Below, piece after piece: positions 19,906 to 52,766 of a DNA stretch of 64,000 bases (the first letter of the stretch is position 1; each line of letters opens with the position of its first letter). The notes beneath the pieces were generated by a model, which saw only the letters and a program-made list of their open reading frames with translations, had not been told where the DNA came from and searched no databases. A program made the translations under genes and the position numbers. This stretch comes from Anadara kagoshimensis (taxonomy: Eukaryota; Mollusca; Bivalvia; Arcoida; Arcidae). Location: assembly GCA_021292105.1 (NCBI GenBank), contig CM037874.1, forward strand, positions 28,031,083 to 28,095,082, in the 5' to 3' direction.

Positions 19906-19937
19906 CCTACCCCGTTTCGATCATATTTTAAAAAATG

Positions 19938-20011
19938 GCTAACTTTAATATATTTTTTCTAACAGAGTGGTGTCTTTTATCGAAGATGAGAATATATGAT
20001 CATTTATATTG
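19938..20011 (+). repeat. Dispersed repeat R, left piece of a copy split by a retroelement
   Basis: AACAGAGTGGTGTC to ATATGATCATTTATA. The matching right piece resumes at 21931 with ACTACAATTCATT; in the uninterrupted copy (17291-17805) these are contiguous. Confidence 0.65.
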
Positions 20012-21726
20012 CTGTTGCTCGTCTTCTCCCTATATTTATGGACCGGCTGGACATGTAATAACTCGTGATCTCAATATAATTGAGAACACCAAATTAAGAT
20101 CTTTACTTTCAAAAGGTCCTAAATATAGAGAAGCTCAACCTTTTACTTGGGGACAGAATTTCCGACTTGTCATGGATTCCGTTGAAGAGTACGCCAGACG
20201 TTGGGCTAAATTAGAAGATGTTGAGCTTGATACCTTATCCGACTGGATAAAGGTTGTGAGATCTTTCGTTAAAACTAGGATTGCCAAACTTAAAGGGTCT
20301 ATGAGTACTAAACCGTCTTCAGTACTCAAGGATCTAGAAATCAAGGCAATTCTTACAGACATACACAACAAATATGTTGTTGTCCCAGCTGATAAGGCTT
20401 CCAACAACATTATTCTCGTTTGTAAGAGATTCTACCTTGAATGTCTTATTAAGGAGCTTGGTTTAGATGGTATATTAAATAACCCTGCATATTCTAGAAC
20501 TAATTTTACCAAAGATGAAGTTCTTTCCAACCATAGGGGAGTTCTCGAGTCTTTCGGTATCAATCTTAAAGAGGAAGATCTTGATCTTCCTTACTTGTAT
20601 TGGATTCCTAAACTCCATAAAAATCCATAAAAGGAAAGATATATAGCAGGCTCATCTAAATGTACTACTAAATTATTATCGGTAACTCTAACACAAATTT
20701 TGACAATCGTCAAAGATGGTCTTCAGTCTTATTCAGAAAAAGTATATTCTACATCTGGAATCAACCAAATGTGGATTCTCAAAAATTCTAAAGAATTACT
20801 TGAACATCTTGCTTCTAATACTTTATCTCATGTAAAAAGTATAAAAACATTTGATTTTTCTACACTATACACCACAATCCCTCATTCTAAATTGAAAGAA
20901 CGTCTTAAAGAAATTATTCACTTGTCTTTCTTCTACAAAAACGGTAAGCCAAGATACAAATATCTGGTGCTGAACAGGGATTCTGGTTATTTTGTCAAGC
21001 ATCATACGGATTCCAAACAAAAATATACTGAAGATACCATCAACAAAATGTTGGAGTTTTTGATAGATAACATATTTGTTGTGTTTGGCAATATAGTTTT
21101 TCAGCAAACAATCGGTATACCAATGGGTACAAACTGTGCACCATTGCTTGCTGGCTGATTTGTTTCTTTATTCTTACGAAGCAGAATTTATGCAGAACCT
21201 TGTTAAATCTGGAGAGAAAACTGTCGCCAAATCATTCAACTCAACATACAGATACATAGATTACGTTCTGTCTCTTAACAATCCTAAATTTGGAGACTAT
21301 GTAAATGTCATCTATCCTAGTGAGCTTGAAATAAAAGACACGACTGATTTCTCAAGTTCTGCTTCATATTTAGACTTATACCTAAATTATGACGCACAAG
21401 AAAGGCTACATTTGAAACTTTATGACAAACGTGATGACTTCAATTTTTCTATTGTCAACTTTCCTTTTTTATGCAGCAATATACCTGCTTCTCCTGCTTA
21501 TGGTGTATTTGTTTCCCAATTAATACGCTATGGTAGAGCTTGTTCCCACTACGGGGACTTTGTACAACGAAGTAGGCTGCTTGCAAATAAATTGTTGACT
21601 CAGGGATATTGCAAGCCTAGGCTTATCAAGGCCCTCAAAAAGTTTTATGGCCGTCATCACAGTATTGTTGATAAGTTTGATGTCTCTGTGTCCAGGATTG
21701 CCTTGGATATATTTGACGTCTCATAG
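20012..21726 (+). pseudogene. Penelope-like reverse transcriptase, three disabling lesions
   Basis: Recognisable blocks in order: GPAGHVITRDLNI, LLSKGPKYREAQPF, VVPADKASNNII, YLYWIPKLHKNP (thumb/finger motif of Penelope-like RTs), ERYIAGSSKCTTK, KTFDFSTLYTTIPH (motif A with catalytic Asp), IGIPMGTNCAPLLA (motif B), then RYIDYVLSLN (motif C) and the C-terminal GRHHSIVDKFDVSVSRI. Lesions: a TAA stop at 20628-20630 directly after the HKNP block; a tandem duplication of GCTG at 21150-21157 that shifts the frame after motif B; and Tyr in place of the second Asp of the YxDD box (21262-21264). The frame from 19935 to 20011 belongs to repeat R and should not be counted as element sequence. Confidence 0.85.
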
Positions 21727-22400: not shown

Positions 22401-23762
22401 TTGTCGTTGATCCTTTGTCCTTGATACATATGTTCTACATCTGCAACAAAAAATTAATGTGTTTGCATGAAAGTAATATAATATAGCCACAAAAAGTTGA
22501 ATGATTTACGTAAATTAAAAAAGTAATGTCTTGATTTTGAAACGTTTCAGAATAATGAGTGGACTTTTTAATTATTTCTTATTTTGCTAGACCAAAATGA
22601 TACCACATGAGTATTTAATTTAAAACAAACGCAAGCGTCTTTAGTCTCTTGCCTAGAGAAAAAGAAATTTTATTTCAGAATCTGCCATCAACTCATGATA
22701 ATACCTCCCCACTTTGTGATTTTAGAAGTAGATTAATTGAACAATGTTATTGACTGATATTATCTAAACGAGTGGATATGAACAAAAAGAAAAAAGAAAA
22801 AAGAAAAAAAAGAAAAGACACTGACCTACTGATTATACAGAGAATTTGATCAGCGTATAATGACTGTTTAGTTTATTAGAACGATAAATGAGAAGCATGG
22901 CAAAAAATTAATGTGACATTTCAAAGTTAACATCAACCATCATTTTGACTCATTTTGAGGTAATTTGTTTTTTCAGATTTTCACATTTAAACATTTCAAC
23001 TTTTTGCAAACTTTTCCCTAGATAGCTCTTGTGTTTTTACCTAGCCTGTCATTTTCAAAGTCTCTATTTTTTCTTGTAATTTGGACACGGATTAGTATGT
23101 TCGTTTTTGATAAATAACTACATATGTATATACTAGTGTAAGTATAATATAAGAAAGTTTTATCAATATTTGTTGTCTTGGTCAAATCAATAGTGAAGAA
23201 TTTAAGTTAATGTTGTGGTTTTCAAAAGAGAATTGAATATCAAATGTTTTAGATAAATATTTGAAAAAATGTTTGGAAAAGCATTTTGAAAAAGTTAAAG
23301 AATATTGGATGTTATCTGTCATCAATCTTTACGAAAGGATATGAAAAATAAAACAAAATACCAATGAAGACATCGACCTTCCAATAATTGATGATGTATA
23401 TGAATCACAAAAACTGGCAAACTCTTATATTTCAAAGATAACATAACTCTCAGGTAATTTCTGAAGACATGGACAGGCAGAGAGTACTGATCTGTGTACT
23501 AATTAGCTATGTTAATCAAATCAGATTGCTTGGAGAAAAACTATATTTTGGCCAAAATGATTCATACAATATTTATTAACAGTTTCGTATGAGGGAAAGT
23601 CAGAAAGTTCATAGAACAGCGTATTCAGCCAAGTGTAACACACATTTTTTTTTTACTTATTTAGACAACACAACATTCCGCCATTTTAAACATATCAAGT
23701 TTATTTGTCACAACATATTCGTGTATTTTTCAAAAGCATTCAAAGTTGATGACCATCAAGCA
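22401..23762. other. AT-rich interval
   Basis: Contains only the last 45 bp of a Penelope-like tail at about 23075-23120 (TTTGGACACGGATTAGTATG) and an A/G-rich stretch near 22790-22820. No gene seen. Confidence 0.6.
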
Positions 23763-24706
23763 ATGATGGGAAATCAAAATGTTGAGTTTAGGGCAGTAAT
23801 AAAGTTCCTCACAATAGAGAGATCAAATGCCAAAGAAATTCACCGGCGAATGGCCGGAGTGTACGGTGACAGTGGTCCTGCCTATTCCACAGTGCCAAAA
23901 TGGTCAGCTGAATTTAAACGTGGGCGCACCTCACTGAAGGATGACCCACGGTCAGGACGGCCAGCTGATGCCATCACAAAGGAAATTGTCACGTCTGTGG
24001 AGACCCTCATCATGAATGATCGTCCAATTAGGATTGATGACATAGCTAGGGAGTGTAACATTTCACATGGAAGGTTATCCACGAGCATCTTGGGATGCCA
24101 AAAGTATCCGCAAGATGGGTCCCCAGAAACCTTAATGTGCAGGATCGCTTCCAAAGACTCCAGTCAAGTCGGAAGCTTCTTGGCATTTATAATGATAACC
24201 GCGAGAGCTTCCATTTACGTTTAGTAACTGGTGATGAAACATTGATTCACCATTGGGACCCAGAAACAAAAAAGAGTCCATGCAATGGAAGCACCCTGGG
24301 TCACCCCTACCAAAAAAATTCAAAACCCAACCATCAGCTGGCAAATTCATGGCCACTGTGTTTTGGGATTCTAAGGGTGTTCTGTAAATCAATTATAAAC
24401 CTGCTGGAATCTATCACTGGGGCATACTATGCTTATCTAATGAAGCATCTGAAAGCTGCTATTAAATTAAAAAGGGGCGAGTTTAGCCGAGGGGTATTGC
24501 TTCTTCACGACAAAGCTCCTGTGCACAAGTCAAGGATTGCACAAGCAGCGATTCGTGAATGCAAGTTCGAACAACTTAATCACCCATCCTACAGTCCCGA
24601 TTTGGCACCCAGTGATTATTTCCTATTTAGAAATTTGAAATCCCATTTACGGGGAATCAAAATTTCTGATGATGATGGACTTAAGGCTGCCACAGAGGCA
24701 TGGTGA
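23763..24706 (+). pseudogene. mariner transposase (DD34D), frameshifted
   Basis: The protein begins MMGNQNVEFRAVIKFLT at 23763. The helix-turn-helix region (AKEIHRRMAGVYGD, KRGRTSLKDDPRSGRP) runs in one frame to about 24070; a small deletion then moves the reading to another frame (EHLGMPKVSARWVPRNL) that continues to 24706. All three catalytic aspartates are present: VTGDET, LLHDKAPVH and YSPDLAPSD, with 34 residues between the last two, the mariner spacing. A stop after ATEAW ends the frame early, though the C-terminal motif continues (KSGLSALG). The wider frame from 23589 is not transposase. Terminal inverted repeats could not be fixed. Confidence 0.88.
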
Positions 24707-31644: not shown

Positions 31645-31902
31645 ATGGGCGTGGACATTACACAGTACAGATCCAGAATTGGTTTATTTCTCCCACATCG
31701 CTGCAAACAAGCTCAGAAAACAACTAAATCTGCCAGCAGAAATGGTGGATGTAAATGTTGTGTTGCCATGGCCACATATAATTTACTACCTTTATTTGTA
31801 ATCGGTATACTTTTACTCATTTCTGGCGTTGAAGTCAATCCCGGACCAGGAAATACACAAACGGTGAATAATAATTATATTTTGAATTGTAATCAACCAT
31901 AA
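31645..31902 (+). CDS. 2A-like peptide reading frame (possible first exon or retroelement ORF start)
   Basis: An 85-codon frame with an excellent start context (ACCATGGG). Residues 1-45 are basic and Cys-containing (MGVDITQYRSRIGLF...). A hydrophobic stretch follows (LLPLFVIGILLLIS), then GVEVNPGPG at 31825-31851. The C-terminal NPG|P is the ribosome-skipping 2A signature (DxExNPGP), but the usual Asp is Gly here. Such N-terminal 2A signals are known at the start of some non-LTR retrotransposon ORFs and of some echinoderm NLR-type immune receptors. A GT at 31889 gives a phase-1 donor that fits the acceptor at 35184 of the gene downstream, though the donor is weak. The frame ends just before a Penelope tail. 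Confidence 0.5.
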   Translation: MGVDITQYRSRIGLFLPHRCKQAQKTTKSASRNGGCKCCVAMATYNLLPLFVIGILLLISGVEVNPGPGNTQTVNNNYILNCNQP

Positions 31903-35183: not shown

Positions 35184-38100
35184 GCAAATGGTCCAATAGC
35201 CTGCACCACTTTCCGAGTCAGCATTTGATACGTGATCGACAAACCGTTTCCGATGACTCGACAATGGATAATGAAGATAATATGGAACCTACACCTTCTT
35301 CAAGTAAGTGTAAATTGATTATAAGGAGGTGTTGCAATTAGACAAGGTGTGTTTGTTTCAAAGGATAAAAAACAAACACACCAACCCATGTCCTAACCAA
35401 AATTCCATGCAAATAAAAAACTATCAGATGCCGAATTTAAATTCTTGTGAGTTTTCTTTAGTTTTATACGTTGTAACAAAACATGTAGTCAAACATGACC
35501 TATCTTACTTTAACATGTCCTTTGCCTACATGGAATTTATGATGAAGAGCAGAACCTAATGATGTGACGCCCAATTGTATATGAGAGTTTGTGTTATTGC
35601 AAAATGTATCACTGAATAATCTACAGTGACTGTATAGTAAAGATATAAATATTGTAAAACTGAGTTATTTTATATTATGTTTAGGTAATTATGTTGTTTT
35701 TGTATTATTTAGATTTATTGTTTTTGCAAAATATAAAAATTCGACATTCCCCAAAAACAAATGTATACTCTTTCATGTCAAGCATTTCCTTAACTAAATT
35801 TGGTTGAAATATATTGAGGTATTTTAATTTTTTTTAAACCCTTTGATAAAATGTTGGTTTCACAGTTTTGGTCCAAGCATGAGGATTTGTAATCTGAAAC
35901 GATCGTCTAATGCTGTAAAATAAACACTGGTATATGCTAATTGTATGGCTATTGTGTCCTTAAGGATTGAACATTAAAAACCAAAATGAATACACAATTT
36001 AAATTATTTGTAAATACTATCAACATAATAAATTCTCAATTTTGCATCTTTAACATATTTACAGGTAATAATTCTGAAGGTTGCAGTGTAACATTAAATA
36101 AAAGTTACGATGATCAACATGGGAGTAGTAACCCTACATTAGACACTGGCTCAAATGGTTCTGATAATGGACATGAGGAGTGTAATCCGACATTAAGTGC
36201 TGGCTCTGCCGAGACGGAGGTCGGATTAGAACAGCTGGAGGAAAATGTTCAAAGCAGTTTAAGAGATTTTTTATCTCTACCAGAAGAACAGTCTCTTCAT
36301 CTTGTCCCAAAGTCTTCAGGTAAATGCAAGTCATGTTTAGTATGTCTACTTAAATTGTATAAAGAAGGCTAGAAAATAGCATTAAAGTTTTATTACAATA
36401 TTAGTTATATAGAGTTTGGGTAGGTTACACGTCCCTCTGTTCCTTGAGACGTAGTCCGTATAAATAGCCAAAACCATATATATCGTTTTGTCATCCTTCA
36501 AAGGTAGACTTTTTTGGGTTCGTATATCTTAATATCGTATTCTGTATGACCACCTATTATGTTGCAATACCATAACTAGACTTTTGCGATAAATGAGTTA
36601 CTTCCCTTTTAACGTTAGAGTGTCTTGTGTACCCCAATAGATTCCCAAACAAAGTTTTATGTATCTCTGCAAGTTAACTAATAGCTATATGAGACATGTC
36701 TTTACAATATGGCATGTTAAAGCAAAAATTCATCGACGTTGAAGATCGGAATCCGAAGGATAGAGCTGGTCTCTCATGAAGAGTTCAGAGTTGATATTAG
36801 TTCTGTGATAACATGCAGCTTTACCAGTCGTCATTTACTAACGGGTAAGCTATTATGCGCAGGCATAAGACGTACATGTATAAAGTTCAGACATCTATCC
36901 TATGAACTTTTTATATCTAATTTGTTTTTCGAGAATAGATGACAATTGTGAAGTAGTTCAAATTGATGTAAATCCTTTACAAGGCACATGATATGACTAA
37001 ATGGTTAAAATATTTATATAAGACACAAAGAAACGGTGGTATTTTGTGCATTCCAAAATATAATCTGATCTGACTACTCTATGATATGTTTCGACGGGAA
37101 AAGTGATAAGGGTTCGTCTGATAGTATAAACACATTCTCAGTTCCATTAAATTAAGAATTGAGATGGTTATAAAACAAATGCAAATCGTACTTATGTGAG
37201 ATTATAAGATTATTAGAATCCATTATGAGTATCTGTGTAAGATAGGTACATCTCAACCGAGGGGTAAACATATCAGTCAGAGACTAGACTTTCCGAGTGT
37301 CTGACCATAAATTGTCAACTCCGAGGGTGAGATTTCCCTATCCTACATGGAAACACTCATAACGGATACTTTCTCTTCTATTTAAATGCCAATATTTCGC
37401 TTCAAATACGATATACATAGATATCGGTGCCATATTTGAAAAATCGAAGTTTCTCATTTAACGTTTTACTTTAAAATAATATATGACCATTGAAAGAATG
37501 TACCTGATTATGGTTTATACGAAAGGTATAAACAAATACACCAAACAAATTCATTCAAAAATTTAAGAATAAACATTTGAACGCACTCAAAATTTCTACA
37601 TTTTGAAGCTTTAGGTGTCATTTTCCCGCAAGATCATAATGACATCGTGTAATTGTCTTTTGATTACGACGTCACTAATGGTCACGTGATATGAGATACA
37701 CGTATCTCACATAGCGAAAAACCCTATCTCACATGAACAGATATGAAGAAATAAATTATTATTAAACCTATGATATATTTCAGGTTGCTATGACATTAAC
37801 CGCATATGTTTCAGGTTGCTCTGTAATTAACCGCATATGTTAGTAGGTCATAAAGAAGTAAAGACATTATTCATTCTAATGAATTCAAAATTAAAACGAA
37901 TCTCTCCATAATAAACCGAATTAAAAAACAAAGCTTTGTGCATTTTAGAAACGTTTATCATTTTATCATTTTTTAACGCAAAGGATACAATTTCTTTAAT
38001 GCAATTCGGCAAAGTGCCACGTTGTACCCTATAATATTTATGTAAAATTATTTCCGATGAATATGGAATCCCAGTTTTTCAAATGGAAAAAGCAGTTGAA

Positions 38101-41100
38101 TACAAGTTTAAATCTAAATATTTTCGAAAAAAAGAATTATTTTCTCTTGTTACCGGCAATAAAATAGCAAATTCAAATAACACAGTTGAGACTCTTTTAA
38201 TGTTAAATTTGATGAACAGATTGTAATTCTTGTTTAATTATTTCATATTTGCAGATAATCGTGACAAGGTGGTCATGATACAAAATCGAAGTGAAAACAC
38301 ACTAAATCTTACAATGAATTTCACAGAAACAAAAGGTCCGATACAACTGGGGAAATCAAACCAAGTGTATGATGTAAAACAAGGTTAGTTTGTTGTTTGA
38401 ATTTTTAGGTAATAACATAATTATTTTAAATAATAATAAAAGTATTTTCTTGTCAAACTTCAGATCATACAATTTAAGAAGCATGCCCATATTATTGGTA
38501 TAAATGCAAGCTTAAACTCGACACACTTGATTTAAGCTTGCAGTCATTAGACTTGCTACAGAAATATGTCTAATAAGTCGTATCCTAAAAGTAGTTGTAG
38601 TTTCTGCTTTAGCAAGCATTTTCAGATACTTTTTATTTCAAACTTTATTCTAGGAATGAAGTTTTTTTTTTCCTTTTTGTTATGGAAGTATAAGAGAACA
38701 TTTTGTACACTGAATAATTTGTGTAGCGAATTATATTACGTGTGCAATGTCCAATTCTTTCATACTCCCATAACAAAAAAAAAATTAACTTCATTTCTTA
38801 TGATTCAATTTATAGGTTTTTTTCAACAACAAACCAACAATTTAAATAACAATACCGCCGTAGCAAGTTAAAAATGGCATCGCTATGGCGTAGGAATTTA
38901 AATGCCTTTGTGCGTCATCTATAATAAGATGACGTCACTGAAAGTCAATCGTAACAGAAAAATATGAACAATTAAAATGCTTGAAACAAAGTAGAATTGA
39001 ATTATACAATCTATTATTTGCATAAAATCTTTAATATTTATATTTCAGGTGAAAAAGAAGACGTTCGTAGTGTTACTTGTATTCTACAACATTTAATAGG
39101 TAATATAAGTATTATAAACATACAGCCTTTGGTTCTGGGTGTTATAGTGGATTATCCCATGAGGCAAAAAAAAAAAAAAACTCGAGACGAAGTCGAGGGT
39201 ATTAAATTTTTTATCTGAGTGGGATAATCCACTATAACTATAACACCCAGAACCAAAGGTGACATTTTTTTAATTATATTTCATGTCTTTTCAGGTTCAC
39301 TCTGTCTTTCTCGGTGATTAGTTTTTTATGTCGTCGTCAAAAATACTGACAAACGCCGTCGTTTTTGACAGTTGTTTGTTTACAAATGTCGGCTGTTGTA
39401 CAGTTTCCGGAAATACTAAATGTCGCAATGGAAAAGAACTAAACTTGTTAAATTACGAGCGCATTGCCTTGGTAATTGTAAATGCAATCAAGTTGGTAAA
39501 AACGATTGCAATAAGAAATTAAAGATGCGTATTGGAAGCAATATCCAAATAGTTATTTCTAAACTAGGTAACACAAGAAGGAAATGTTATACTACTTGTA
39601 GTTTAAATGTGCTCTCTTTGAATTGTCGTCTCAACCTCTTTATGAGATATAACGTGATACAAAAATATAACACACGCACACACACACACACTTCTGTTGA
39701 ATTTAAATTACATTTATGTTAATTCAATTTCGTATCTTTTTTTGAAAACAGATCGTACAAAAGAAGAAATAGATCACCAAAAAATATCTTGGGTTGACAG
39801 GACTGGATTTGACGAATTGATTCGTCGTTTACGTGCTTCGAAAATGGTGGTTTTGACAGGTATCTGTGGGGAAGGAAAAACAAGGATAGCAATGCATTTG
39901 ATGAAGCTAACTCTGAAGGGAAGTTTGCCAGGATTTACAAACAGAATACCGATAAAAATCAACGATCCATGTGAATTGACACATGTCGTTCGTTCCGGCA
40001 AAGATATTCTCTTATTCATTGACGACATCTTTGGTTCAACAAATTTAAACGAAACGCTTCTTCGTCAGTGGGAACAAAAACTAAATGACATTGGACGAGA
40101 TGTTTCCAGGGGACAAATAATGTTAATCGTGTCATCTAGAAAGCATATTTTCACAGAAGCCCTAACACTCCTTAAGCATTCTGCATATAGTGCAATAACT
40201 ACAAATCTTTTCTCGGAGCGGAGACATATAGATTTATCAGGTAGATATACGCTTTCATTAAAAGAAAAACGTCTCTTTGTGGAGAAAGCCATCGAACAGC
40301 AGACAGGTTATGATTTAAAAATATGCGGTCACCAGAAGGAGGAAAATATATCCCAGTGCCAAAACACAGAAAACAAAACGGTCTATATTGCGGAGCAAAC
40401 AATTGATAACATAATACATGCTGAGACCTCTTTAGGATTTCCATATCTTTGCAATCTATTCATTTCTTCAAAAGACATCATTTCAAAAGGACTTTCTTTC
40501 TTCACGAAATCTAATTACTATTTAGAAAAAGAGATCAATGCAATGTTCCATTGTGACAAAGTCAAATATTTTACTCTTGTTTATACGTTACTGAATAACG
40601 ACAAAAGCACTCTTTATGTGGATTCAAAGAAGTTAGATCCTTTTAAAATTTCGAAAAGCGACCAAGACACTTTGCAAAAGATAGCACAGGCATGTGGTCT
40701 AACAGGTGCCACCCCTCAATCTATAAAAGACGCAGCTGAATGTCTCAAAGGGGTATTTTTCAAATATAACAGCTCTTCAAATTCTACACATTCCCTCACC
40801 AATCGATTCTTGAAACAGTCAGTTTACATTTTGGTAGAAAATATCCCGATATGCTTCTTCAGCATTGCTCGTTTAAATTTCTTGAACAATTCGTTTCATT
40901 AGAAAAACCAGATTTGACAAGAGACAAACCGGAAATATTTGTATCGTCTGAATATTTTGAAACACTTTCGGGTGTAATGTATGGCTACCTTTTAAAATCA
41001 CTACTCCCAGAATCCCAAATAAATAACCGTATAATGAAGGATGAGAACTTTGTTTTTTACTTTTTTAACTACTTGGATAGAAACCAACTAACGCAAAACC

Positions 41101-42926
41101 TTCTAGAAAAACGATATTCGTGCTATGGAAGGTGCTCATGTAAAAATATAAAACACATTTACCAACACAGTGTAGCCGCATATGCCTCTGGGAACGAACT
41201 GTTTCTGAAGAAGCTTATCGACAGAGGAATATTGGACACATCACAATTACAATCGAATCAGTATCAAATTGCGGAATGTTCAGGAGAAAAATTCAACTAT
41301 TGTGATTGTTACATGCTAAACGCTTTTAAACATGGAAACACAGTTTGTATCAAACTTTTGTTACACTACGGAATCAGCCTTCCAGAACAGAGTTTGTGCC
41401 TTGCAGCATCTGGTAATGGTGAGCTGCTCAAATTTATTTTTCAACAAAAGAAATGGTCACAACGCGAGGTCAATATGGCGTTACATAGGTCATGCGCAAT
41501 GGGAACTATTCAAAATGTTAAGTATTTAGCAGATCAAGAAGTATATCTTGACGGTAATAGCTTCCATTTGGCTGTTGATAGCGGTGATGTAGAAACCGTT
41601 AATTTCGTTCTTCATCAGGCCCGACCATCGGACTTCGATAAAATCTTAGCACTGTATAAAGCTTGCAAAGATAGAAATTTTCAAGTATTGAAATTTCTTG
41701 CAGAAAAAGGTGTTTATTTCGGCTTGAGCTTACTTGAATTAGCTGCAAGATACTCGGGTGGAAAAACCGATATTTTGGATTACATTTATGTTTCAAAGAA
41801 ATGGACATTAAAACAAAAGACGAAAGCACTCAACCACTCTTGTAAATTCGGATCAACAAGTGCCCTAATATATCTTTTAGAAATGGGTTCGGTTTGCGAC
41901 GATGACACATTATGCATCGCAACAAAATCTGGGTACATTTCTATTGTCAAAACAGTTTTCCATAAATATGATTGGCCGATAAAATCGTTGAAGGATTCAA
42001 TCAATGCAGCATGTAAGAAGGGGTATTTAGACATCATACAATACTTTATAAGTAACAATGTATTGTTTAATGATGAAAGCCTAAACTTTGTTGTTCACTC
42101 CGGGAATGAAGACTTACTGCATTATGTGTTAAATAAACAAGAAGAATGGGCACAGGAGCAGATAGACGACGCTATGAGGGAAGCTTGCAAGAGGTGTAGC
42201 CTACCGATGGTAAAATATTTGAATGATTTTGGAGCAAATTGCACAGAGACGATTTTCCCATTTATTTCTTCAAATACAAATCTCTTTAAATTTGTTTTGA
42301 ATAATGGTAATTGGTCTATGGTTCAGCTGGAAAAATCATTAAAGGAAGCATGTCGAAACAGTGATATTGAAATTATAAAATATTTGAACATTGAGAAAGG
42401 TCTCCCTTACAGCGACGAATGCTTAAAGCTCGCAACTGAATCTGGAAATGCGTCAAAACTGAAGTATGTGTATGAAACCGGAAAATGGTCAAATCTCCGT
42501 ATCACGGAGTCATTTGACATTGCATGCAAAAAAGGTCTTATGGACATGATTACATACTTTCATCAAAAAGGGGGTTCATGCAGTTTAGAAGGTCTAAAAG
42601 GAGCAGTTTGTTCAATGGATATATCAGTGGTTCAGTTTTTAATCACAGAATTCGAGTGGACAAACGATGAAAAGACAGAGGCTATGAATACAGCATGTGG
42701 AACAGGTGACCTTGAAATTGTGAGGTATCTACATTCGAAGGATATAAATTATGGAAAAAATGCGCTTTCGTATGCTGTTGTCGCGCGTGAAGACTTTGTA
42801 CAGTACATATATTCAACCGGAACTTGGACAGTTGCGCAAATAAACAAGGCAATAGAAGAAGCAGAGAGAAGGGCAAATAATTCTTCAGTCAATTATTTGA
42901 GGGAGAAATTATTTGCTCGTATTTGA
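35184..42926 (+). CDS. RHIM-like / nSTAND3 NTPase / ankyrin-repeat protein gene (multi-exon, one frameshift)
   Basis: Proposed exons, all joined in phase 1 with AG/GT borders: 35184-35303, 36065-36319, 38255-38383, 39049-39099, and 39752 to the stop at 42924-42926. About 1,240 codons; the N-terminus is not fixed. The first two exons encode Ser/Asn/Glu-rich, disordered sequence (NPTLDTGSNGSDNG and NPTLSAGSAETE repeat each other). Exon three holds the RHIM-like IQLGKSNQV. The large exon has Walker A GICGEGKT (39859-39882), Walker B LLFIDDIFG (40006-40035), a VSSR sensor (near 40140) and HIDLSGRYTLSLKEK, the pattern of nSTAND3 NTPases, followed by ankyrin-like repeats. One T appears to be missing at 40829-40832. 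STAND proteins with a sensor array and an oligomerising N-terminus act as ligand-triggered immune switches; I infer such a role. First exon and start are the weakest parts of the model. Confidence 0.75.
35760..35935 (+). mobile_element. Hammerhead-bearing small retroelement, copy D (deleted core)
   Basis: TTTCCTTAACTAAATTTGG and CAGTTTTGGTCCAAGCA match the family. The ribozyme at 35875-35915 has lost part of stem I and the first core bases but keeps TGAGGATTTGTAATC, TGAAAC, GATCGTC and TAATGCT. It lies in the intron between the first two proposed exons of the RHIM-nSTAND gene. Confidence 0.65.
37220..37375. mobile_element. Palindromic MITE in an intron of the RHIM-nSTAND gene
   Basis: Inverted ends: CCATTATGAGTATCTG...GATAGG...ATCTCAACC against GGTGAGAT...CCTATCCTACAT...CACTCATAACGG. 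A related single arm (AGGATAGGGATATCTCATCC) is seen near 50460. Confidence 0.65.
38255..38383 (+). CDS. Exon encoding the RHIM-like amyloid motif
   Basis: Flanked by TTTGCAG and AAG|GTTAGT; 129 bp, phase 1 at both ends, so it could be skipped without a frame change. The 43 residues include NLTMNFTETKGPIQLGKSNQ followed by VYDV. The stretch IQLGKSNQV (38341-38367) fits the RHIM core [IV]-Q-[IVL]-G-x-x-N-x-[hydrophobic], which in RIPK1, RIPK3, ZBP1 and insect Imd-pathway proteins drives amyloid-type assembly in cell-death and immune signalling. The assignment rests on about nine residues plus the position ahead of a STAND NTPase; it is a motif call, not proof of function. Confidence 0.65.
38655..38795. 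mobile_element. Hairpin MITE in intron
   Basis: AATGAAG then TTTTTGTTATGGAAGTAT pairs with ATACTCCCATAACAAAAA then TTAACTTCATT. Non-coding. Confidence 0.7.
39126..39259. mobile_element. Hairpin MITE in intron, near-perfect arms
   Basis: CCTTTGGTTCTGGGTGTTAT then AGTGGATTATCCCA is repeated in inverse as TGGGATAATCCACT then ATAACACCCAGAACCAAAGG. A loop with an A run and CTCGAGACGAAGTCGAG separates the arms. The arms are almost identical, so this insertion is young. Confidence 0.85.
39752..42926 (+). CDS. Terminal exon: nSTAND3 NTPase and ankyrin-like array
   Basis: Starts after GAAAACAG; the reading frame is open to about 40830, then continues in another frame to TGA at 42924-42926. The NTPase core occupies roughly the first 370 residues. 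Conserved landmarks after the ATPase include LGFPYLCNLFISS and LEKEINAM. From about 41330 the protein is a series of ankyrin-like helix pairs in units of roughly 64-70 residues, each with an 'A...G....(V/I)(K/Q)YL' helix and a recurring W-x(3-5)-(Q/E/K) helix, for example MREACKRCSLPMVKYL, SLKEACRNSDIEIIKYL and AMNTACGTGDLEIVRYL. I count about eight. Such diverged paired ankyrins are typical of large invertebrate and protist receptor families. Confidence 0.85.
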
Positions 42927-46115: not shown

Positions 46116-46348
46116 CTTTAGTTTTATAGACCGTCGATTTTAAAATGAAAACGTCTATGTCACATAACATATAAAACAATGAAAAACGATAAGCTTAAAC
46201 AAGTTTTTAAATACAAAATAATGGAAAATAATGCTACATTAATGTGCAACTGCAAAACATGAAAACTAATGCATTGCACGATTGACACACATTCTATTCC
46301 ATATGCTTACGCCACACCAAATAATCCGTATACGATTGTTTACAACTA

Positions 46349-47155
46349 CAGTCCAACCTACCTTAAAGGTCATCTCTATATAAGGTCCACCTGCTTACAA
46401 AGGCCAGTAGATTGTACTGTCCAACCTACCTTAAAGGTCATCTCTGTATAAGGTCCACCTGCTTAGAAAGGCCAGTAGATTGTACTGTCCAACCTGCCTT
46501 AAAGGTCATCTCTGTATAAAGTCCATTGCTTACAAAGGCCAGTAGATTGTACTGTCCAACCTGCCTTAAAGGTCATCTCTGTATAAAGTCCACCTGCTTA
46601 CAAAGGCCAGTAGATTGTACTGTCCAACCTGCCTTAAAGGTCATCTCTGTATAAGGTCCACCTGCTTACAAAGGCCAGTAGATTGTACTGTCCAACCTGC
46701 CTTAAAGGTCATCTCTGTATAAAGTCCACCTGCTTAGAAAGGCCAGTAGATTGTACTGTCCAACCTGCCTTAAAGGTCATCTCTGTATAAAGTCCACCTG
46801 CTTACAAAGGCCAGTAGATTGTACTGTCCAACCTGCCTTAAAGGTCATCTCTGTATAAGGTCCACCTGCTTACAAAGGCCAGTAGATTGTACTGTCCAAC
46901 CTGCCTTAAAGGTCATCTCTGTATAAAGTCCACCTGCTTACAAAGGCCAGTAGATTGTACTGTCCAACCTGCCTTAAAGGTCATCTCTGTATAAAGTCCA
47001 CCTGCTTACAAAGGCCAGTAGATTGTACTGTCCAACCTGCCTTAAAGGTCATCTCTGTATAAGGTCCACCTGCTTATAAAGGCCAGTAGATTGTACTGTC
47101 CAACCTGCCTTAAAGGTCATCTCTGTATAAGGTCCACCTGCTTATAAAGGCCAGT
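46349..47155 (+). repeat. 68-bp tandem array, about 12 units
   Basis: Each unit reads GTCCAACCTGCCTTAAAGGT ... CACCTGCTTACAAAGGCCAG then TAGATTGTACT. Units differ by only one to a few bases (AAGGTCC or AAAGTCC; TTACAAA, TTAGAAA or TTATAAA), implying recent expansion. It lies about 500 bp upstream of the C1q gene start. Confidence 0.95.
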
Positions 47156-47269
47156 AAAATAGTATACCAGTTTTATACCATATTATTTGAACCTTTATAT
47201 AAAGGCCACCTGCCTATAAAGGCCATGTTTTCTTGTTCCCTTGGGTGACCTTTATAGACAGGTTTGACT
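46349..47269. mobile_element. CAGTC-family MITE expanded by an internal tandem array
   Basis: The left end CAGTCCAACCTACCTTAAAGG and right end CCTTTATAGACAGGTTTGACT are the two ends of the small MITE family seen complete at 26346-26524. TA lies on each side. Between the ends is a 68-bp tandem array (46349-47155), then a normal right arm. Confidence 0.8.
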
Positions 47270-47637
47270 TACAACTGTGTTGTTTTAAATCTTGTAGTTT
47301 AAAAAACAAAATAATTGGAAATAATGCTAACTTATTATGCGATTAAAGAACGTGAATTGCCATAATCGATTGTAATTGACACTTGCCCTATTTCTCATAC
47401 ATAATCTTACGCCATACAAAATTACCCGCATACCCTTGTTCACAACTTTTAATCTCAAATTACTTTAGTTTGTGATCTTTGCCAAATGTTTAAATTTGTT
47501 TTTATTGATTTGTCTCAGTAGTATTTAATACTTAACAAACCATGACGACAAAATTATAGCATCATTTGATAAGGTAATTTGATTCGAGATATAAAATGAA
47601 AAAAAAACACAACCTACACTCAAACAAACTGGCAGCA

Positions 47638-50600: not shown

Positions 50601-52766
50601 GGTTTCACAATCATTCCTTAGCTAAGGTTTTCCTTAACTTAAATCTTGCAAAATTTCAAATCTTTATAATTTTGTTAATTTTCCAGATATTCAGGAATTT
50701 GTGGTGTCATTTTTATGATTACTTCCAGATTAAAATATTCGCGTATAGTTTTGACAAAAACATTTATAAGGATTACCAAATTTTGATAAAATTAAGTTAA
50801 TGAAAATCTTAGCTAAGGAATGATTATAACACCGGGACCTGATCAATCAAACTGCATAAAACAAAGAACGATTGAATAATTATAATTTAAAACTTATTTT
50901 ATCTGATCGTTTAATACTATTTAGTATTTAAATAAATTCTATATCTTGGATAGTTAGAACGTTTTCATTTTCATTCTAATTTATAATGAATTAATTTGAC
51001 AGATTGTACCAACGTTGCTTTTACTGCCAGGAAACTGGACAGAGTAACACTGACAGACCCAAACTTAACGGTGAAGTTCGATAGTGTAATACTGAATGCT
51101 GGTAAAGGATACAACAGTTCAACGGGGCTATTCACGGCACCAGTGAATGGTACCTATGTCTTCAGTTGGACCATCACGACCAAACAGTTCCTTGCTACCG
51201 GCTCTGGGCTCTATGTAAATGGCACTTATGAGATAGCAAGGACATGGGCAGATGCAAGAGAAGTTAAACGTATCCAAGATAGCGCTGGATCAAACACTGT
51301 ATCAGTTCAACTTCAGAGGTAAACAAACAGTCTGCACATGCGCATCTAACCGGTAAAACGAATTCCAAAGTCGAAGTACAGCATGTTCAATCAAACAATG
51401 TTTGAATGTAGAAATATCCACGTGGCACAAAATATGTGCGGAGTGGCTTGGCACCAGTTCATCCAGGGTACGATTCGCAGCGTCGTATGTGATAAGAAAT
51501 TGAATCAACTGCTTAAACGAGTCCTCGTAATAATTGGTCAATTGTAGTTTTTGTTGGCATTTTGATTTCAAATCAGCGATTAGTGACAAGACAATCGAAT
51601 CAGTGATTGTTGACGCAACAGTCGAATCAGTGATTAGTAAAAGCGACAATCGAATCAGCGATTGGTGACGCGACAATCGAATCAGCGATTGGTGATGCGA
51701 CAATCGAATCAGTGATTGATGACGCGTGAATCGAATCAGTGATTGATAAAAGCGACAATCGAATCGGTGATTGGTGACGCGACAATCGAATTAGTTATTG
51801 GTGACGCGACAATCAAATCGGTGATTGGTGACGCGACATTGGTGACGCGACAATCGAATCAGTGATTGGTGACGCGACAATCCCATCAGTGATTAGTAAC
51901 GCGACAATCGAATCAGTGATTGGTGACGCGACAATCCCATCAGTGATTAGTAACGCGACAATCGAATCTTCTTTTTCTTTTTCCTTCTGATCTTCTTCTT
52001 CATTTTCTACTCTTCTTCTTCTTAATATTATTATTATTATTATTATTATTCCTCTTCTTCTTCCTGCCATGAACTTGTCCCCTAAATTTCTCGGAGACCA
52101 ATATTAACCATTCATCACAATAAGGTTGATTCCTATTCGATTATTATCAAAATGGCAGTCGTTACCATAGAAACTGAAAAGGGCGGAAATTAAAAGTGCT
52201 CTTAAATCAATGAAATTTCACAGAAATGTTGTATAGGAAGCGTTACTCTTATATAAAGGGTTGAAATTTTCAAAATACCGTCTGTTGGCATGGAAACAGA
52301 AAAAAGGCGGGAAAATTATGTGCTCCAAATTCAATTATTTTTACAGAAAAATAGATAGCAAAATATAGATAGCGTAGAACTTATTTTAAGGCTCAAAATT
52401 TCCAAAATGGCGGTCGTTGTCATAAAAATGGAAAACGTCGGGAACATTCAAAGTACTACAAATTAAATGAAATTTCCAAAAAGGTTTATAGCAAGAATAG
52501 AACTTATTTTAGGGCTGAAAATTTCTAAAATGGCGGTTTAACACTTATTCGTTTGGATGCCTTTTTATAATGATGCATTCCATCATTACATTAATACTCG
52601 TTAAATGTAACGTTATAAAATATCGTAATATCGTTATTAATAAATACTTTACTTATATTACAGAGGTGACAATGTGAGGATAAATCTAAAGCCAGATTTC
52701 GGTCATCTGTTTGTTGAAGGCGATTTGTGGTCAACTTTCTCTGGGTGGAAGATAGGTTGTCCATAG
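47638..52766 (+). CDS. Secreted C1q-domain protein, four exons
   Basis: Exons 47638-47737, 49493-49579, 51003-51318 and 52664-52766; all borders are GT/AG (GAAG|GTAATG, TTTTAG|TT, AGAG|GTATAT, GACAG|ATTG, GAG|GTAAAC, ACAG|AGG), with phases 1, 1, 2. They join to exactly 606 bp, 201 residues plus stop. The N-terminus has a signal peptide (MYEEAVLVFLVCVLNAAAG). Exon 2 encodes a short coiled coil (ELESQITDLRQRLGDVKTAM). Exons 3-4 encode one C1q domain: VAFTARKLDR, VKFDSVILNAGKGYNSSTGL, FTAPVNGTYVFSWT, VSVQLQRGDNVRIN, STFSGWKIG. Bivalves have hundreds of such genes, used as secreted pattern-recognition lectins that trimerise (family knowledge). An upstream in-frame ATG at 47596 would put 14 polar residues before the signal, so 47638 is preferred. 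No collagen repeat is present. Confidence 0.92.
47977..48100. mobile_element. ACCTGTCGAAAGTTTAACAC-family fragment in C1q intron 1
   Basis: The left end AACCTGTCGAAAGTTTAACA then CTGAGCC is followed by GGCTGCCGAAGAGCCG. The right end is not clear. Confidence 0.5.
48603..48860. mobile_element. Inverted-repeat MITE (GGTCCCGG family), copy 2, in C1q intron 1
   Basis: TTCCTTAGCTAAGAATTTTC near the left and GTTAGCTAAGAAATGATTGT then GAAACCGGGGCC at the right. Confidence 0.75.
49020..49158. mobile_element. ACCTGTCGAAAGTTTAACAC-family fragment in C1q intron 1
   Basis: The interior has GGCCGAATGAGTTGCCG and GCTCGCCGAAAGATG; the right end is TGTTTAACTTTCGACAGAAT then GTACTGCAG. Confidence 0.5.
50595..50839. 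mobile_element. Inverted-repeat MITE (GGTCCCGG family), copy 3, in C1q intron 2
   Basis: GACCCGGTTTCACAATCATT and CCTTAGCTAAGG at the left; CTTAGCTAAGGAATGATTAT and ACCGGGACC at the right. Confidence 0.8.
51003..51318 (+). CDS. C1q exon 3 (most of the C1q domain)
   Basis: Acceptor TTTGACAG at 50995-51002, donor GAG|GTAAAC at 51318/51319. Encodes the beta strands from CTNVAFTARKLDRV to NTVSVQLQ. The aromatic and Gly positions of the jelly-roll fold (FDSVILNAGKGY, TGLFTAPVNGTYVFSW) are conserved. Confidence 0.92.
51575..52062 (+). repeat. 27-bp minisatellite and trinucleotide tracts in C1q intron 3
   Basis: The unit is approximately GTGACGCGACAATCGAATCA then GTGATTG, repeated about 14 times to 51967 with variants. 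CTT-rich and (TAT)n tracts follow to 52062. Minus-strand reading frames across it (SPITDSIVA repeats) are by-products of the 27-bp period. Confidence 0.9.
52145..52540 (+). repeat. Degenerate tandem repeat of about 115-140 bp in C1q intron 3
   Basis: The phrase CAAAATGGCGGTCGTTGTCA, with variants, recurs near 52149, 52275, 52411 and 52527. Each is followed by GAAA...GGCGGGAA-like and ATTTCCA/CACAGAAA-like phrases. Confidence 0.7.
52664..52766 (+). CDS. C1q exon 4 (end of domain and stop)
   Basis: Acceptor TTACAG at 52658-52663. Encodes GDNVRINLKPDFGHLFVEGD then LWSTFSGWKIGCP and TAG. The final FSGWKIG is the usual C1q ending (FSGxxL/I). Confidence 0.92.

Follow-up and report, generated by a model that had tools for sequence, protein, structure and literature searches.

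A probable nSTAND3 receptor gene in the bivalve Anadara kagoshimensis with a RHIM-like segment in its predicted N-terminal tail

We analysed a 64,000-nucleotide stretch of the genome of the bivalve mollusc Anadara kagoshimensis (GenBank assembly GCA_021292105.1, 1.115 Gb in 36 contigs), which lies on contig CM037874.1 (here C18:28031083-28095082) and is referred to as the window, with positions counted from its first base. The window contains what is probably a shellfish immune-receptor gene, in which an nSTAND3 ATPase would serve as an ATP-driven switch and an array of ankyrin repeats as the sensor. The predicted N-terminal tail of this protein carries a short RHIM-like segment, and the segment appears to be a member of a variable group of such sequences encoded by phase-1 exons upstream of nSTAND3 domains. 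Taken by itself, the window motif would be classed, weakly, as a borderline RHIM, with a profile comparison at P of about 0.05.

Predicted gene structure and domain order

The gene model comprises five exons on the + strand, whose junctions are all in phase 1 (Table 1), and the encoded protein has, in order, an acidic and Ser-rich tail, the RHIM-like segment, a short linker, the nSTAND3 domain and the ankyrin repeats. A possible in-frame start ATG is located at 35264 within the first exon, which is the first that could be placed; the true 5′ end of the gene may lie elsewhere. Splice sites were ranked by a simple splice-site score. The exon carrying the RHIM-like segment is bordered by AG and GT and is open; in the frame that continues into the linker exon and the large exon it reads ...LNLTMNFTETKGPIQLGKSNQVYDVKQ. 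No other open phase-1/1 candidate between 36320 and 39751 has two sites that good, and when the flanking introns were shuffled 300 times (order-2 Markov), no candidate of at least 100 nt with sites as good arose (the whole window holds four such candidates on the + strand and one on the - strand). Its codon usage scores 5.7 bits in its own frame versus -15.4 and -6.9 in the others, but this support is weak because 28% of random open stretches taken from 20-31 kb score as high. The original prediction, which joined this exon in phase to the exons at 39049 and 39752, agrees with the frames, sites and phase-1 junctions found here; as a gene model, the exon and the predicted architecture are in our view well supported.

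The nSTAND3 ATPase and the ankyrin-like repeats that had been proposed downstream were both recovered with Pfam profiles at scores above their cut-offs (Table 1). Within the ATPase, the sequences GICGEGKT (about 39859-39882) and LLFIDDIFG (about 40009-40035) are presumably the Walker A and Walker B motifs. No Pfam domain was recognised in the tail, and the short motif is therefore the obvious candidate for a signalling element. The layout of amyloid-signalling NLRs (a motif, a STAND-type NTPase and C-terminal repeats) is present in the gene model, with a motif that is RHIM-like only.

The reading frame of the large exon shifts by one base near 40.78 kb, a break that the original prediction had overlooked. 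Most of the window from 8.5 to 61.4 kb (8523-61435) has an inverted second copy about 1 Mb away (C18:27.04-27.09 Mb), possibly the result of a segmental duplication or of an unmerged haplotype. Its blocks are 80-98% identical to the window, most of the long ones 92-98%, and mobile-element stretches occur in one copy only. The second copy is open at the window's break and has its own one-base length difference further on. Protein searches outside the genome returned only P0001, a protein of 1027 aa that shows 97% identity over 83% of the query and is open across the window's break; the pieces with the RHIM-like segment matched nothing at E 10, no relative of P0001 was present among viral contigs, and the PDB held no match to the exon at E 10. 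An AlphaFold model of P0001 had a mean predicted local distance difference test score (pLDDT) of 38 and was discarded. Between the two copies, the ratio of nonsynonymous to synonymous substitution rates (dN/dS), which rests on few differences, is 0.26 for the N-terminal exons, 0.27 for the coding sequence upstream of the break as a whole, which includes those exons, and 0.18 downstream of the break, a pattern that suggests a protein under selection. The first exon is the same in 119 of 120 bases and the RHIM-like exon in all 129 (129/129), the latter not being strong evidence because the neighbouring introns diverge by just 1-3%.

RHIM-like sequences upstream of nSTAND3 domains

The RHIM core tetrad is defined as (V/I)-Q-(V/I/L/C)-G (PMC9444067). 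The window tetrad, IQLG, conforms to this definition and is followed at +3 by an Asn at the RHIM place. The chance of finding such a tetrad in 205 residues of the same composition is P = 0.010, and about 0.0008 with the Asn at +3; eight tetrads occur in the six frames of the window, and only the one at 38341 has this Asn. The RHIMs of RIPK1 and RIPK3 share the tetrad, the Asn three residues after the Gly and an alternating hydrophobic stretch before them. Unlike these, however, the window motif is carried by a STAND ATPase rather than a kinase, is below Pfam detection, and has paralogues in which the Gln is lost. When the window motif was compared with a profile built from three RHIM sequences (those of human RIPK3, human RIPK1 and a second RIPK1), the alignment was limited to IQLGKSN and scored 1.4 bits. 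The claim that IQLGKSNQV matches the RHIM core agrees with the tetrad and the Asn, but the silence of the Pfam RHIM and the borderline profile scores hold it short of a firm assignment.

A RHIM that does exceed the Pfam cut-off exists elsewhere in the genome. A search with PF12721 gave four matches at E 10, one of them over the cut-off, in an exon at C14:32.600 Mb (L057, C14:32598900-32600900) that encodes TTINIQNSKNVQVGNNNVMVINQ (25.2 bits, 24.2 in a recheck; E 0.023 genome-wide) and whose RHIM stretch reads NVQVGNNNVMVI. This exon sits on another contig than the window gene, and its product is a possible partner of the window receptor.

Relatives of the window segment were sought at nSTAND3 loci elsewhere in the genome. 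From 312 first-look candidates obtained with PF20720, 22 were scored, and all of these were strong matches; P0001 gave 40 matches, the best of which after the two copies has 26% identity. We read about 5-7.5 kb upstream at 25 other loci (15 found via PF20720 and 10 via P0001, some being near-duplicates). At five of these 25, a phase-1/1 upstream candidate exon encodes a hydrophobic-x-hydrophobic-Gly core (Table 1). The Gly and the flanking hydrophobic places are kept in all five paralogues, and the tetrad is identical in the near-identical second copy of the window gene. At C5:67.32 a 51-nt phase-1/1 candidate exon (ESTDIHSDFHEKEAII) follows the motif exon, the same order as in the window. These loci point to a variable pattern shared by several nSTAND3 genes, in which a phase-1 exon upstream encodes hydrophobic-x-hydrophobic-Gly, often followed by x-x-Asn. 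A sixth pattern match, ILIGD at C19:28.16, was judged to be due to chance.

Two formal patterns were counted across reading phases. The first, composed after the motifs had been seen, has eight matches among 199 phase-1 candidates, representing four exons; it has none among 146 phase-0 candidates, and its two matches among 106 in phase 2 are at the C5 site. The second, [VIC].[IVL]G[KRDN], matches 6 of 90 distinct phase-1 donors versus 1.5 in shuffles (P 0.004), with four of the six matches known before it was written and the C15 exon escaping it; there is one distinct match among 72 phase-0 candidates (VAIGD, C12:0.08) and none among 42 in phase 2.

Some upstream exons are of other kinds. At C13:9.34 (L034) and C13:29.71 (L043), 147-nt phase-1 candidate exons encode beta-rich stretches (NVQTITNITNITTSTRNI and NLQLTNVGQFKYETGNIHIHN) that are possibly other motifs; as RHIMs they were rejected, with low scores despite their beta-rich look. 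The nSTAND3 genes L040 (C9), L044 and L045 (C12) have helical upstream exons resembling what we take to be a DZIP3-type HEPN region.

The two C1 loci, C1:39.45 (L036/L016) and C1:39.47 (L038/L021), are 23 kb apart and, over about 9.5 kb, can be aligned at E 1e-10 in only two blocks. One is the motif exon, which is 93.4% identical over 166 bp (40 of 42 residues in the shared stretch), and the other the ATPase exon, which is 75.0% identical over 2053 bp (291 of 387 residues). The short upstream exon, which contains GASGCIIGDNI, is thus conserved far better than the ATPase exon, a pattern that a shared signalling element would be expected to leave.

The resemblance of these exons to known RHIMs is strongest when they are considered as a group. 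A profile of the window, C5 and C15 sequences matches the RIPK1/RIPK3 RHIMs with a probability of 75 (P 2.5e-5) over 14 ungapped columns. None of 400 column permutations reached this score, and the same was true (0/400) when the window sequence was left out. When the genome's own RHIM was added to the target, the permutations as good numbered, of 250, none for C15, none for C12, one for the C1 pair and two for C5. After the letters had been verified at the loci, the C15, C12 and C5 exons, C5 with C15, and the window, C5 and C15 together each gave 0 of 200 with both targets. These permutation P values are too small, because the sequences were chosen for looking right. In an unselected ranking of 182 candidates with the three-sequence RHIM profile, C15 came first at 4.9 bits, where 0.3 are expected in shuffles; run over 170 and later 182 candidate exons, that profile was not significant by itself. 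Taken together, these comparisons suggest that the paralogue exons are RHIM-like as a group.

Table 1. Predicted features of the window gene, and candidate motif exons upstream of other nSTAND3 domains in the same genome
Feature	Location	Strand	Sequence or core	Remarks
Coding exon, acidic Ser-rich N-terminal tail	35184..35303	+		phase 1/1; open frame, splice sites
Coding exon, Ser/Asn/Glu-rich tail	36065..36319	+		phase 1/1; coding log-odds 18.2 bits
Exon carrying RHIM-like segment	38255..38383	+	GPIQLGKSNQVYDV	phase 1/1
RHIM-like segment	38302..38376	+	LNLTMNFTETKGPIQLGKSNQVYDV	tetrad IQLG 38341-38352, Asn 38359-38361
Linker exon, 51 nt	39049..39099	+	EKEDVRSVTCILQHLI	phase 1/1
Large exon with nSTAND3 ATPase, ankyrin array and stop codon	39752..42926	+		frame broken near 40.78 kb
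nSTAND3 domain	39793..40269	+		PF20720 78.1 bits (cut-off 27.2), E 7.4e-22
Divergent ankyrin array, putative sensor	41150..42923 (start approximate)	+		Ank_2 114.1 bits (cut-off 27.3), 8 stretches
Candidate motif exon	C5:67.32 Mb		SVISIDSINNCNEVAIGRSNTRIYKR; core VAIGRSN	phase 1/1
Candidate motif exon	C15:24.88 Mb		ISIRSISNCSNVSIGSYNENYFLKR; core NCSNVSIGSYN	phase 1/1; picked by eye
Candidate motif exons	C1:39.45 and C1:39.47 Mb		NTYVKGASGCIIGDNI(K/T)ITHN; core CIIGDN	phase 1/1
Candidate motif exon	C12:0.08 Mb		IHIHGPVTIVKDSSHVAIGDK; core VAIGDK	phase 1/1

Amyloid signalling and its alternatives

The best single explanation is that this gene encodes a STAND receptor that signals through amyloid, a plausible reading for which the arguments on the two sides are about evenly balanced. 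Such a receptor would consist of an N-terminal tail that is probably disordered, the RHIM-like segment, the nSTAND3 ATPase and the C-terminal ankyrin sensor. A ligand on the ankyrin array would release the ATPase, which may then oligomerise on ATP, and the oligomer would cluster the N-terminal segments into a cross-beta assembly, possibly an amyloid. This assembly could template or recruit a RHIM-bearing partner, with NF-kB activation or cell death as the likely output. More tentatively, there may be a whole family of nSTAND3 receptors in which a portable phase-1 exon supplies RHIM-like amyloid motifs that have diversified. The motif variants, IQLGKSN, VxIGxxN and CIIGDN, would feed a RHIM adaptor such as RIPK1, or separate partners, which would make these proteins animal amyloid-signalling NLRs. 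The original prediction of a STAND sensor that exposes a RHIM holds for the architecture, which is real as a gene model, but the window gene alone does not establish the identity of the RHIM.

Several observations weigh against amyloid signalling. The Pfam RHIM profile, which gives the human RIPK1 peptide 25.1 bits, has no match to the window exon at E <=10 and none to the C5 or C15 exon; of the two domains named in the original prediction, profile searches therefore recovered nSTAND3 (78.1 bits) and not the RHIM. In profile-profile comparison with RIPK1/RIPK3 the window motif alone has a probability of 2.3, with 21 of 400 column permutations as good and 10 of 200 in a rerun, and 11 of 250 and 12 of 200 permutations match it when the genome's own RHIM is added to the target. 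The residue before the tetrad is Pro instead of the Gly of RIPK1 and RIPK3, and an Asp stands at +4 from the Asn where they carry a hydrophobic residue. Among the relatives, the Gly is kept, and the Asn is found in the best-aligned ones, but the Gln is replaced by A, S or I in the five paralogues and kept only in the window gene and its near-identical copy. The search for paralogues yielded five loci with related cores, but 19 of the 25 have no motif in the roughly 5-7.5 kb read upstream, a range from which farther or poorer-site exons would escape. The paralogue exons themselves were chosen after the fact from about 90 phase-1 candidates, and the splice sites of the C15 candidate score weakly (0.5 and 4.1). 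Singly, C5, C12 and C1 have low profile-profile probabilities (5 to 16), the C1 pair is matched by 14 of 400 permutations against RIPK1/RIPK3, and in a same-genome ranking of 182 candidates C1, the window and C5 stand at ranks where shuffles give 3 to 7. The identity of the C1 motif exons could be the result of recent gene conversion. Finally, the splicing is modelled from genomic sequence alone, and both assembled copies are frame-broken.

The main rival to amyloid signalling is that the exon is coding, but that IQLG...N is a chance resemblance in a disordered tail and the protein signals otherwise, for example through an unrelated adaptor. We regard this as possible, though not the reading we would choose. 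It is favoured by the 0.29 cores with Asn that are expected in six frames of the whole window, where one is seen, by the borderline scores and the silent Pfam profile, and by the 19 loci that lack the motif in the stretch read. However, chance would have to account for the same hydrophobic-Gly pattern on same-phase candidate exons at five other loci, one pair of which is strongly conserved, and for a tail that has no other Pfam domain. Alternatively, the upstream exons might encode a conserved short module that is not amyloid, such as a beta-rich peptide docking to one partner. The conserved C1 motif exon and the loss of the RHIM Gln in paralogues would fit such a module, which we nevertheless consider unlikely given the ungapped profile match to RIPK1/RIPK3 that none of 400 permutations equalled, albeit with sequences chosen after the fact. 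It is very improbable that the window copy is a decaying duplicate whose architecture is not in use. Decay could explain the break near 40.78 kb and the different one in the second copy, but dN/dS values of 0.18-0.27 between the copies argue otherwise, P0001 is open across both break places, and each break is a length difference of a single base, of the sort expected from an assembly error or an allele.

Neighbouring elements and comparison with known receptors

Elsewhere in the window, the intervals 19932-21726 and 23580-24706 hold what are presumably reverse-transcriptase open reading frames and a broken mariner-like transposase, and they are mostly unmatched in the second copy. A further open reading frame (50990-51322) presumably encodes a C1q-like domain; C1q domains are common in bivalves. 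A tandem array with a 68-bp unit occupies 46256-47292. At 31645-31902, 3.3 kb upstream of the first exon, an open reading frame carries a 2A-like (StopGo) sequence, ISGVEVNPGPG, after a hydrophobic stretch. It was rejected as a first exon, being without constraint (five of six substitutions relative to the second copy are in residue-changing codons) and having no in-phase donor scoring above 3 after the 2A, and is probably the 5′ piece of a retroelement. Sea-urchin NLRs carry N-terminal 2A signals (PMC4981915). The window resembles them in having a 2A-like frame upstream, but here that frame is unconstrained and is not joined to the gene by a good in-phase donor.

The nSTAND3 domain (PF20720) is described as the NTPase of the anti-phage STAND protein Avs5 (AVAST type 5), where it lies between an N-terminal Sir2-like effector and C-terminal repeats (PMC12931631). 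The window gene shares the central nSTAND3 domain and the C-terminal repeats, whereas its tail has a short motif only and no Pfam enzyme domain. A parallel in layout is found in fungi and bacteria. The PP motif of Podospora is RHIM-related, partly cross-seeds with human RIP1/RIP3 and is found at the N-terminus of the NLR PNT1 (PMC7885112). In both PNT1 and the bacterial BASS3 NLRs, a short motif related to RHIM lies on the N-terminal side of a STAND-type NTPase that is followed by repeats, as predicted for the window gene. However, PNT1 combines NB-ARC with TPR rather than nSTAND3 with ankyrins. Unlike in the fungal and bacterial NLRs, moreover, the window motif is preceded by about 125 residues, counted from the possible start ATG, and a six-frame tetrad scan recognised no adjacent motif-bearing effector gene in the window.

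A 2021 review notes that, in contrast to fungi and prokaryotes, mammalian signalling does not show such motifs in comparable architectures (PMC7889193). No report of a RHIM on an animal STAND receptor turned up among the results listed from the open-access literature, so that novelty is not proven. A ready partner for testing is zebra-mussel RIPK1, whose C-terminal part needs its RHIM for full NF-kB activation in human cells (PMC12119088). If confirmed, the window gene would be an animal counterpart of the fungal amyloid-signalling receptors. A RHIM-like tail on an invertebrate STAND receptor, if true, would bridge these systems and make a common origin testable by simple peptide seeding assays.

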